Source: Suttonella sp. R2A3 | GTDB lineage: Bacteria > Pseudomonadota > Gammaproteobacteria > Cardiobacteriales > Cardiobacteriaceae | Direction: 5' to 3' | NCBI RefSeq assembly: GCF_021513215.1 | Contig: NZ_CP090975.1 | Span: forward strand, 489,501-553,500 | DNA: 64,000 nucleotides | Shown: one piece after another, positions 587 to 12,857 of the stretch | Layout: each line of letters opens with the position of its first letter | Numbering within the stretch: position 1 is the first letter of the stretch | Notes under the pieces: model-generated | The model's input: only the letters and a program-made list of their open reading frames with translations | What the model was told of the DNA's origin: nothing | The model's database searches: none | Position numbers and translations under genes: made by a program

Positions 587-739
587 GAACTCATCTTGTG
601 TTAAAAAAGTCTCGATATTGTAGCAAATACCCTTGCTATATGAGGGGTAAATTCCTACCAGACTTCGCATAAAATAACTAATGATTTTAAATAACGCTTA
701 CTGTTATGATAGGTATTATGGTTTCATGCGAGAGACAGG
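587..739 (+). promoter_or_regulatory. metG/cas1 divergent intergenic region with a weak cas promoter candidate
   Basis: This 153-base stretch between the metG and cas1 starts must hold promoters for both directions. A TATGAT at 705-710 is a fair -10 for the cas operon, but the -35 about 17 bases upstream (TGATTT near 682-687) is poor, so the assignment is weak. A ribosome binding site (AGAGACAGG) lies directly before the cas1 ATG at 740. No coding sequence is seen here. Confidence 0.35.
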
Positions 740-9183: not shown

Positions 9184-9340
9184 TAACCCATAACAAAAAG
9201 GCAAAAATACCCTTTTGATACGCTCTTTAAAAACTTAATTAAAAATCATATAGTTGCAGTAAGTTAAAAAACAATTGGTGAATATTTGGTTTTTGTCACT
9301 AAACGCTTGCCACAACTATATTGTTCACCTTAAAATTCTA
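9184..9340 (+). promoter_or_regulatory. CRISPR leader with promoter and IHF-like sites
   Basis: AT-rich leader between csy4 and repeat 1. A good sigma70-type promoter is TTGTCA at 9293-9298 and TATATT at 9317-9322 with an 18-base spacer, which would start the precursor crRNA about 12 bases before repeat 1. Two 12-of-13 matches to the IHF consensus are seen: 9244-9256 on the plus strand and 9208-9220 on the minus strand. I-F adaptation is known to need IHF bending of the leader, so these are plausible integration sites. GTTCACCTT at 9323-9331 echoes the first seven bases of the repeat. Confidence 0.8.
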
Positions 9341-11950
9341 GTTCACCGCCGCACAGGCGGCTTAGAAATTGGGGATAAGCAATGTTGCTTCATACTTACC
9401 GTTCACCGCCGCACAGGCGGCTTAGAAAAGGTGAAGGTCATGGACCGAATACGAGGGCAAGTTCACCGCCGCACAGGCGGCTTAGAAATTAGACTCTCGA
9501 ATTGATTGCATCTTTGTACTGTTCACCGCCGCACAGGCGGCTTAGAAAACAAGATCCACATGCCCAAGACGAATGGTTGGGTTCACCGCCGCACAGGCGG
9601 CTTAGAAAATACTTAACACCATACGGCAAATGAGTGATTAGTTCACCGCCGCACAGGCGGCTTAGAAATCATCAGTGATTCTTTGATCGCGTGATTTAGC
9701 GTTCACCGCCGCACAGGCGGCTTAGAAAACTGTATTGTTGCCGTGTTGTAATGTTTATTAGTTCACCGCCGCACAGGCGGCTTAGAAAAATTATACTTAA
9801 GAAGCCTTGCTGCAACAAAAGTTCACCGCCGCACAGGCGGCTTAGAAATTATGATTTTTACTTTGAATTGTACAAATTGCGTTCACCGCCGCACAGGCGG
9901 CTTAGAAAAAATCGCACGGATCGATTCCTTGATTTCTTGATGTTCACCGCCGCACAGGCGGCTTAGAAAATGTGGCGAATGAGCAGCTCAGAATCGCTGG
10001 TGTTCACCGCCGCACAGGCGGCTTAGAAAATGGACGTTCGCTATGGTTTGCGAATGAAACTGTTCACCGCCGCACAGGCGGCTTAGAAAATTGCCTGCGC
10101 AGCACCGTCGCTATCTTTTAGGTTCACCGCCGCACAGGCGGCTTAGAAAGTGTCTCCAGAGTGATAATGTGCCTTGATAAGGTTCACCGCCGCACAGGCG
10201 GCTTAGAAAGTCGTCTGTTTTTCCAAGTTCTTTGAGCATAGGTTCACCGCCGCACAGGCGGCTTAGAAAATTGGATTTACCACCTTTTTAGCGAGGCGTG
10301 AGTTCACCGCCGCACAGGCGGCTTAGAAAGACAAGCAAGATGCAAAGCTTATTGCTAATTAGTTCACCGCCGCACAGGCGGCTTAGAAAGCTATTTTCTG
10401 AAGATCCAGAGCCATTACCTGGTTCACCGCCGCACAGGCGGCTTAGAAATATTAACGTAGCGATTTGGCAAGCGTAACGGTGTTCACCGCCGCACAGGCG
10501 GCTTAGAAATTTGTGATCTCTAAAGAATCGTTGAATCGCTTGTTCACCGCCGCACAGGCGGCTTAGAAAGCTATGACGATGTTTAGCGAACCGCATAATA
10601 TGTTCACCGCCGCACAGGCGGCTTAGAAATTCATGATAAGCGTTAAGCGCTTGATCAACTGGTTCACCGCCGCACAGGCGGCTTAGAAAATTTAGTGGCG
10701 GCAGGTCTATTTACTTTAATAGTTCACCGCCGCACAGGCGGCTTAGAAAAGATCTTTATTTAAAATCGACGCACCATCATCGTTCACCGCCGCACAGGCG
10801 GCTTAGAAATAACGGTCGGGCTTACGCCGTAAAGAAATTACGTTAGCCGCCGCACAGGCGGCTTAGAAAAACTTGAGACATAGACAATTTTTCACTCATA
10901 AGTTAGCCGCCGCACAGGCGGCTTAGAAATCTCGTCCGTCTATGTTCAATGTGGCAAAATCGTTAGCCGCCGCACAGGCGGCTTAGAAATCAATAATAAA
11001 CTGCCAGAGCATGCCATCAATGTTAGCCGCCGCACAGGCGGCTTAGAAATTAAATGCTGGTGAAAATATCGGCGGTGATTTGTTAGCCGCCGCACAGGCG
11101 GCTTAGAAATCAAAAAAATCGAGGATATGCTCTTTAAACTCGTTAGCCGCCGCACAGGCGGCTTAGAAAGATTTTGTATGCAGAGTACACAAACAGCCGA
11201 GGTTAGCCGCCGCACAGGCGGCTTAGAAACAAACAATCTCACTTGAAACGATCATCCTTTCGTTAGCCGCCGCACAGGCGGCTTAGAAAAGCTAGTAGCT
11301 GAAGATCCGCTGACTGGTTATGTTAGCCGCCGCACAGGCGGCTTAGAAACTCAATATAAAGCTTGCTACCTTTGCGGCAATGTTAGCCGCCGCACAGGCG
11401 GCTTAGAAAATACATTGGCCACTTAAAAAACCCTGTTCAGGGTTAGCCGCCGCACAGGCGGCTTAGAAATATATCAGCGCGTTGGCGAGACAGATCAATA
11501 CGTTAGCCGCCGCACAGGCGGCTTAGAAACATTTCTTCGAAAATGCCCGTTGAGTATTTAGGTTAGCCGCCGCACAGGCGGCTTAGAAACAAGACGATAT
11601 CGCTGATCTATTCGGTGTATCGTTCGCCGCCGCACAGGCGGCTTAGAAATGTATTCGTCGCTTCTGGCGGCAACGTAGGCAGTTCGCCGCCGCACAGGCG
11701 GCTTAGAAATTTCGGCAACAGAATCGCTTCACCATCTTTGAGTTAGCCGCCGCACAGGCGGCTTAGAAAGTTTTAGCGCGTGCGTTATATCTAAATACAC
11801 CGTTAGCCGCCGCACAGGCGGCTTAGAAATCTTGTAATGGGATAATCCCCCCATCCTTGTCGTTAGCCGCCGCACAGGCGGCTTAGAAACACCAGAAGCA
11901 GAACGTAAAAAACTAGACACACGTTAGCCGCCGCACAGGCGGCTTAGAAA
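9341..11950 (+). CRISPR. type I-F CRISPR array, 44 repeats and 43 spacers
   Basis: 28-base repeats alternate with 32-base spacers; spacer 10 (9909-9941) and spacer 43 (11890-11922) are 33 bases. Repeats share a CCGCC/GGCGG stem with GCACA loop and the I-F 3' end CTTAGAAA, which becomes the crRNA 5' handle. Three variants occur. Repeats 1-25 (9341-10809) begin GTTCACC; repeats 26-38 (10842-11589) begin GTTAGCC; repeats 39-40 (11622-11709) begin GTTCGCC; repeats 41-44 (11742-11950) begin GTTAGCC. Apart from positions 4-5 every repeat is identical, including the last. Transcription is rightward from the leader, so the right end is oldest. No two spacers are identical and none was seen to match another part of the window by eye. 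Confidence 0.99.
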
Positions 11951-12070
11951 ATCAAATATCCCTGCAATGCACATCATCACCAGCTCTAGGTTTTCTAATT
12001 AGACAGATAACTCGTTAAGTTTATCGATGAGCGTTGTGGTAGTTAGGTGATCGATGTGTTCTTTGCTATC

Positions 12071-12099
12071 TTGATTTCCTGTGGTTTTTTACTTATAGT
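12071..12099 (+). promoter_or_regulatory. promoter of putative sRNA copy A
   Basis: TTGATT at 12071-12076 and TATAGT at 12094-12099 are spaced exactly 17 bases, a good sigma70 match. The predicted start is near 12106. It lies 120 bases beyond the last CRISPR repeat. In copy B the -35 block is identical but the -10 position reads AAAATC, or CAAAAT with 16-base spacing, which is much weaker. Confidence 0.7.
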
Positions 12100-12105
12100 T
12101 GGCGT

Positions 12106-12215
12106 GCAGATCGTGTAAAGATCTTGCTCCCCCCGCGCCGGAGAATGTAGGCATATCTGCAAGCGTGCGAAGCCGGGTTCAACATCGCAATCCCCCTTAT
12201 TCAGGGGGATTTTTT
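12106..12215 (+). ncRNA. putative small RNA, copy A
   Basis: An approximately 110-nt transcript is predicted between the promoter at 12071-12099 and the terminator ending at 12215. Three hairpins can be drawn. A 5' hairpin pairs GCA-GATC with GATC-T-TGC near 12106-12127. A middle hairpin has a TGCGA/TCGCA stem at 12166-12170 and 12185-12189 with a 14-base loop. The terminator follows. The middle hairpin is kept in copy B with the same stem and loop length, although the loop differs at several bases. I do not recognise the family; it is not tRNA, 6S, tmRNA or SRP RNA. As no terminator lies between the array and this unit, its terminator may also end read-through CRISPR transcripts (inference). 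Confidence 0.6.
12190..12215 (+). terminator. Rho-independent terminator of sRNA copy A
   Basis: Stem ATCCCCC (12190-12196) and GGGGGAT (12204-12210), loop TTATTCA, followed by a run of six T ending at 12215. Strong on the plus strand only. Confidence 0.9.
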
Positions 12216-12405
12216 GTACAACAAAATACCCTTACGTTTAGTATCGATTTGGTGCAGCAATTGTTCTTTGTTATCTGCACACTTAGATAACTGGAATATT
12301 ATCGAGCTATACCACGTGCTTTTTTGCCTAGTAGCCACCGCCTCCTAATTCAGCCAGATTTTGTCAGGGTTGCTAAACACTTCTAGCAGCAGCGGCAGAT
12401 GCAGC

Positions 12406-12434
12406 CTTATCGACTTTTAGATAAGACTTTTTTT
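12406..12434 (+). terminator. terminator-like hairpin between the two sRNA copies
   Basis: CTTATC (12406-12411) pairs with GATAAG (12420-12425) over an 8-base loop and is followed by AC and seven T. The stem is short and AT-rich, so it would be a weak terminator. I found no convincing promoter upstream of it; a third transcript is possible but unproven. Confidence 0.4.
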
Positions 12435-12596
12435 CGTGGATAAATAGATATCACTGGTTCGTAAAAATGCTTTCAACTTCTGCTTCGAGGATGTCCTCAA
12501 TTTATTAAACTTGGCGATGATAAGGTCGATTTATAAGTTAATGGGTGGTTCTTAGCCATACTTGATTTCCTGTATTTTCTTACCAAAATCAACCTG

Positions 12597-12708
12597 AAGG
12601 CAGTTGTTGTGGGAAGTTCTCTCCCGGGTCAGAGGCTTGAATGGCACAGCCTGCCGCGTGCGAAGCCAAGTTCTAGATCGCAGCCCCTGATTATTCAGGG
12701 GCTTTTTT
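12597..12708 (+). ncRNA. putative small RNA, copy B
   Basis: Paralogue of the RNA at 12106-12215. The 5' end is uncertain because the -10 is degenerate. Predicted hairpins are GGGA/TCCC near 12611-12624, AGGCT/AGCCT near 12633-12652, then the conserved TGCGA/TCGCA hairpin (12659-12663 and 12678-12682, again a 14-base loop) and the terminator. In both copies the conserved loop has the form AGCC..GTTC....; the 5' half is unlike copy A, as expected if the two RNAs have different targets or if copy B is decaying. Family unknown. Confidence 0.5.
12683..12708 (+). terminator. Rho-independent terminator of sRNA copy B
   Basis: Stem GCCCCTGA (12683-12690) and TCAGGGGC (12695-12702) with loop TTAT, followed by six T ending at 12708. 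An 8-base-pair, GC-rich stem; strong. Confidence 0.9.
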
Positions 12709-12857
12709 ATACCACAAAATACCCTTGCAGCATTTGTTCAGATCGCGCAATAGACCTTCTCTATCCATTTGTTACTATAACCATCACACAAGCAGCTTAA
12801 CTTGCGCCATTCATTGAATGGAATATTCTGGTGTTTATCTGTTATAGGTAAAAATTG

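Follow-up and report, generated by a model that had tools for sequence, protein, structure and literature searches.

The stretch of about 900 bases between the end of a type I-F CRISPR array (position 11950) and nadM contains a tandem duplication of a promoter-to-terminator unit of about 110 bases. The two copies are best explained as sibling small RNA (sRNA) genes of about 110 nt each that would stem from one duplication in this species' own lineage, a reading that we give an even chance of being right. The window analyzed here is a stretch of 64,000 bases (positions 489501-553500) of a single 1.99-Mb contig, and its left end carries, in order, metG (minus strand, its start being our own reading after a comparison with relatives), cas1, cas3, csy1-4, the leader, the type I-F array with 44 repeats (9341-11950), the gap that holds both units, nadM and recR. 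The gap contains no convincing gene, nadM and recR are encoded on the minus strand, and no plus-strand gene lies downstream of the units. According to the sibling sRNA reading, each copy would be transcribed independently on the plus strand and end at its own terminator. The common 3′ segment (GCGUGCGAAGCC..GUUC) and the terminator would serve to stabilize the RNA or to bind a chaperone and might also provide a pairing region common to both copies; target specificity would differ between the two RNAs by virtue of their diverged 5′ ends, as in siblings of the OmrA/OmrB type.

The tandem duplication is real. A preliminary description of the locus had named two diverged copies, and when the halves of the stretch are aligned locally, 12058-12233 pairs with 12548-12726 at a score of 80, a value reached by none of 300 dinucleotide shuffles (mean 20, maximum 29). 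The copies lie about 492 bases apart and share the blocks listed in table 1. Conservation along the unit is uneven, with 83% identity in the promoter block (12057-12093 in copy 1), 40% in the transcribed 5′ half, 85% in a 27-base 3′ segment, 56% in the terminator (a one-base shift not being allowed for) and 94% in the 17 bases past the terminator. Both the promoter block (Fisher P = 4e-5) and the 3′ segment (23 of 27 bases identical, P = 1.3e-4) are more conserved than the 5′ half. The 5′ halves are unlike each other, as previously described, with a local score at the shuffle mean, and the upstream flanks score at or below it. Overall, the kept parts are the −35 block, the 27-base GCGTGCGAAGCC..GTTC.A.ATCGCA segment and the intrinsic terminator, and this pattern (83% and 85% against 40%) is not expected from a simple drift of the copies. 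The retention of promoter block, 3′ segment and terminator around a diverged transcribed 5′ half argues for sibling sRNAs, as do the nearly equal predicted lengths, the two same-strand 9-bp terminators with T runs and matched arm changes, and the lack of a plus-strand gene downstream for the terminators to regulate. The earlier statement that no protein frame is conserved also holds: a frame of 63 codons crosses each terminator, but the two lie in different reading frames.

Table 1. Features of the duplicated units and of related sites, in window coordinates.
Feature	Position	Strand	Remarks
AAATACCCTT between metG and cas1	625..634		left island junction; end of the metG upstream sequence conserved in the family
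AAATACCCTT in type I-F leader	9205..9214		about 136 bases before the first repeat
Copy 1 promoter block	12058..12099	+	GTTCTTTGCTATCTTGATTTCCTGT; −35 TTGATT 12071-12076, −10 TATAGT 12094-12099; 83% identical to copy 2
Predicted sRNA 1	12106..12216	+	about 111 nt; putative, with the start placed by the −10 and the end by the terminator
Copy 1 conserved 3′ segment	12163..12189	+	GCGTGCGAAGCCGGGTTCAACATCGCA; 23/27 identical to copy 2
Intrinsic terminator 1	12189..12216	+	9-bp stem and T run; terminator scan, fold
Conserved DNA block after terminator 1	12217..12233		TACAACAAAATACCCTT; 16/17 identical to copy 2; AAATACCCTT at 12224-12233
Inverted repeat after copy 1	12270..12291		GTTATCT/AGATAAC; from the preliminary description; correspondence to that of copy 2 not shown
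Copy 2 promoter block	12548..12589	+	−35 TTGATT 12562-12567; weak −10 candidate CAAAAT 12584-12589
Predicted sRNA 2	12596..12709	+	about 114 nt; putative, from fold and promoter/terminator scans
Copy 2 conserved 3′ segment	12656..12682	+	GCGTGCGAAGCCAAGTTCTAGATCGCA; alignment with copy 1
Intrinsic terminator 2	12682..12709	+	9-bp stem and T run; terminator scan, fold
Conserved DNA block after terminator 2	12710..12726		TACCACAAAATACCCTT; AAATACCCTT at 12717-12726
Inverted repeat after copy 2	12807..12821		CCATTCA/TGAATGG; from the preliminary description

The −35 block CTTGATTTCCTGT is present in both copies, as reported earlier (at 12070 and 12561), and copy 1 combines it with a −10 in the arrangement TTGATT-17-TATAGT. 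A promoter scan of the region returned one site, that of copy 1, against 2.1 expected from shuffles, and did not report a copy 2 site; with the scan at chance level, the promoter claim rests on conservation rather than on consensus. The poor −10 of copy 2 and the lack of enrichment of promoter-like sites count against the sibling sRNA reading. A role of the −35 block as a regulon box was rejected, since elsewhere in the genome the near matches to it lie within long reading frames.

Terminator hairpins were found in both copies (12189-12211 and 12682-12703), as the preliminary description had it. They share the TTATTCAGGGG side, and on direct reading the opposite arms are matched by change (AATCCCCC vs AGCCCC), so that the arm differences between the copies amount to one paired exchange and one paired indel. 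The terminator is the only element for which the earlier proposal that structure rather than sequence is conserved can be upheld, whereas the second proposed hairpin is kept in sequence and the inverted repeats in the 3′ flanks are not shown to correspond. The arms of that second hairpin, TGCGA/TCGCA with 14 bases between them, do occur in both copies (12166-12189 and 12659-12682), but the structure, though possible, is not the minimum-energy fold, and ViennaRNA prefers GCG..CGC closed over GAA/TTC. Both arms are invariant, so covariation cannot decide on the hairpin with the 14-base loop. Hairpin and terminator together fold somewhat better than shuffled sequences (z = −2.0 and −3.1); the whole predicted RNAs fold little better (z = −1.6 and −1.2), a weakness that again speaks against sRNAs. 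Plain duplex energies were uninformative for a prediction of sRNA targets because they scale with length and G+C content.

The inverted repeats in the 3′ flanks exist, but the claim that they keep their place is not supported, since they begin 36 bases (copy 1) and 80 bases (copy 2) past the ACAAAATACCCTT block. The similarity of the flanks is also modest: their longest common word, TGGAATATT, which the preliminary description had listed as part of the unit, was matched by 22 of 300 shuffles, and their best alignment score of 21 was equalled by 18 of 300. A 7-bp inverted repeat occurs in both flanks together in 0.6% of the shuffles, but this feature was chosen post hoc.

The main rival explanation, which we regard as rather unlikely, is that the stretch is decaying leftover DNA, the tail of an island between the array and nadM in which the promoter and attenuator-like terminator of a lost gene were duplicated. 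The restriction of the units to this genome, the weak −10 of copy 2 and the lack of a plus-strand gene downstream all agree with decay; as the sequence stands, this last point excludes a role of the units as leader or attenuator of a neighboring gene. Direct reading also revealed a mini-frame of 10 codons, resembling a leader peptide, that precedes the conserved segment behind a purine-rich stretch in copy 2 and is absent from copy 1. Against decay stand the conservation, which is uneven in the manner expected of function, and the two terminators, which are still perfect, with their arm changes matched.

No relatives of the units were found outside their own genome. A screening of the region against Rfam gave no match at gathering score (the best hit below threshold reached 16.1 bits of the 49.5 needed, E = 0.62), and a DNA search of the genus and family returned only the two copies in the window plus short matches to terminators or coding sequence. 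A covariance model of the 71-base core, built from both copies as the preliminary description had suggested, gives the two copies 100 and 96 bits and matches nothing else convincingly: other hits in 32 genomes of the order and 369 of the class stayed at or below 32 bits, and those inspected were terminators behind unrelated genes, or chance. A covariance scan of 61 loci, 54 of them stretches that carry a type I-F locus (among these Dichelobacter nodosus, a member of the family, figures twice), likewise gave nothing convincing; the I-F locus of the sister species also lacks the units. Phages and plasmids yielded only short terminator matches, and the exact degenerate pattern was absent from viral contigs and from 84,980 species genomes (one each, the window's own record possibly being left out). 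Weak matches proved, where inspected, to be ordinary terminators, coding sequence or chance, and the 5′ halves had no match elsewhere in their own genome. As far as could be seen, the unit pair thus appears specific to this lineage, so that purifying selection between species cannot be invoked, and the missing relatives count against the sibling sRNA reading. No known Rfam family or mobile element matched, either of which would have spoken against a new sRNA pair. As to the proposal of an undescribed family, the units match no Rfam family, but "family" is an overstatement for two copies that are the only ones in everything searched. The proposed pair of sRNA genes itself remains the best reading, with parts that seem selectively kept, qualified by the poor promoter of copy 2.

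The best-conserved block of the unit (16 of 17 bases) lies beyond the terminator and hence outside the predicted RNA, a further point against sibling sRNAs. It includes the ACAAAATACCCTT block, named in the preliminary description and confirmed in both copies (at 12221 and 12714), and the word AAATACCCTT, which, as the block cannot be conserved for the sake of the RNA, is the most interesting loose end of the analysis. The genome contains AAATACCCTT 12 times in 1.99 Mb, and four of these occurrences are intergenic within the CRISPR locus and on the plus strand (625, 9205, 12224, and 12717), while seven of the remaining eight fall in long reading frames. At a frequency of 12 per 2 Mb, about 0.008 occurrences are expected in the approximately 1.2 kb of intergenic DNA of the locus. 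Two of the four copies go back to one duplication event, leaving three independent ones, and the word was noticed post hoc, which makes the finding less significant than these figures suggest, yet still notable.

The copy in the leader stands where I-F systems have the ACCCTT motif, and the D. nodosus leader carries the same word at nearly the same distance from the first repeat (about 137 bases). Many I-F leaders carry ACCCTTTTTT or its inverse, and published structures place Cas2 contacts on inverted-repeat motifs of the I-F leader (PMC12259127), which we infer to be motifs of the ACCCTTTTTT type. At the left junction (608-634), the family-conserved metG upstream sequence TTnTAGCAAAT stops exactly at the start of TACCCTT and the island sequence; the copy at 625 lies right at this boundary and so owes part of its match to metG. 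The same stretch contains a perfect 6-bp inverted repeat, TAGCAAATACCCTTGCTA. Between the last copy (12717) and the nadM stop lie 132 bases. The copies are thus found at the joints of the island, marking off the cas operon; the leader, array, and sRNA 1; and sRNA 2, an arrangement that may reflect a binding site, an assembly through recombination, or chance with a leader motif as its basis. An improbable explanation starts from here, namely that the DNA is what matters, with TACnACAAAATACCCTT serving the island as a site of protein binding or recombination and the sRNA-like part carried along as a passenger between such sites. The strong conservation past the terminator, the four same-strand copies, and their presence in the leader, with an identical counterpart in D. 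nodosus, and at the left island junction are in its favor. However, only 10-11 bases are common with the leader (9 of 300 shuffles score as high in the pairwise comparison) and no other part of the leader is present, the leader of the sister species has a different form (ACCCAAAAA), metG accounts for part of the copy at 625, and this explanation does not say why promoter block, 3′ segment, and terminator are conserved.

The proposed tie to the CRISPR locus is supported by position and by the common AAATACCCTT motif, but in the sister species no units of this kind lie between the I-F array and the rlmL-like gene that follows it. A CRISPR connection is therefore unproven, and apart from AAATACCCTT nothing ties the units to CRISPR function. 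Very improbably, both RNAs might form part of the I-F island as regulators or guards of the system, with AAATACCCTT subjecting them, the cas operon and the array to common control. The end of each of the two units has ATACCCTT in common with the type I-F leader (ACCCTT-type inverted-repeat motif, PMC12259127); unlike the leader, these ends have no second arm and no CTCTTTAA stretch, do not show the leader spacing, and are not followed by a repeat. A decayed second leader or array was rejected because only AAAATACCCTT matches the leader and the best CRISPR repeat match in the region was reached by 50 of 200 shuffles.

The location at an I-F locus also evokes type VIII toxin-antitoxin systems, in which a unit would encode a CreT-type toxin RNA under CRISPR control, normally held in check by the Csy effector, which would use a crRNA-like guide. 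The mini-frame of copy 2 behind its purine-rich stretch, as in Acinetobacter creT genes (PMC10097628), and a CC dinucleotide in the conserved −35 block are compatible with this explanation, which we nevertheless consider extremely improbable. Published I-F CreTA modules have two repeat-like elements and a guide with 17 of 20 bases paired to the target (PMC10097628). Here, no repeat-like sequence rises above chance, the sole hairpin resembling a Csy4 site is rich in wobble pairs and lies within the copy 2 promoter, and none of the array spacers matches a CC-flanked site of the locus at as many as 9 of the 10 informative positions, so the defining features of CreTA are missing. The resemblance to I-F CreTA (PMC10097628) is limited to small RNA-like genes at the locus and a mini-frame in one copy; besides the missing degenerate repeats and guide match beside CC, the present units are two similar copies instead of a toxin and an antitoxin guide, copy 1 has no mini-frame, and they occupy another place in the locus, the cas3-csy1 gap that is home to the known I-F modules being only 62 bases long in the window.

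The suggested tie to nadM was rejected on present evidence. nadM is present in 11 of 12 genomes of the family, and among the nadM loci compared the units occur only at the window's own; in the sister species, nadM has a peptide transporter as its neighbor and lacks the units. A terminator scan found no intrinsic terminator for nadM on the minus strand (12234-12857), and the nadM transcript may therefore run antisense through sRNA 2.

Sibling sRNAs encoded in tandem are known from OmrA/OmrB, PrrF1/PrrF2, and AbcR1/AbcR2 (review PMC4211561). Like these, the present units are two adjacent same-strand copies, each with its own predicted terminator, a conserved −35 block (a full promoter being predicted for copy 1) and a length of about 80-115 nt, and their sequences are partly common and partly diverged, as expected after duplication. 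They differ in that no sequence relation to the known siblings was detected (no Rfam hit) and in that known siblings are conserved across genera, whereas this pair occurs in one genome and is predicted from sequence. OmrA and OmrB, furthermore, have both ends in common and differ in the middle, while here the transcribed 5′ half has diverged. The kind of system is thus known and this pair is new; its support is structural and comes from one genome. If expressed, the pair would be a clean case of lineage-specific sRNA duplication outside known families, in which the 3′ half is retained and the 5′ half is free to vary, and if the AAATACCCTT site is functional, one DNA element would link small RNAs, the cas operon, and the leader of a I-F system.

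Several minor observations concern the I-F loci themselves. The leader sequence CGCTCTTTAAAAA (9217-9229), also found in other I-F leaders, resembles the boxA antitermination element; boxA is known in CRISPR leaders. Two I-F loci in the family look damaged, that of D. nodosus with stops inside its csy3 match and that of a further member with csy3 in two pieces. Within the 44-repeat array of the window, repeat variants are grouped in blocks, GTTCACCG being proximal and GTTAGCCG distal to the leader with two GTTCGCCG repeats between them, and the array thus records at least two changes of the repeat 5′ end.
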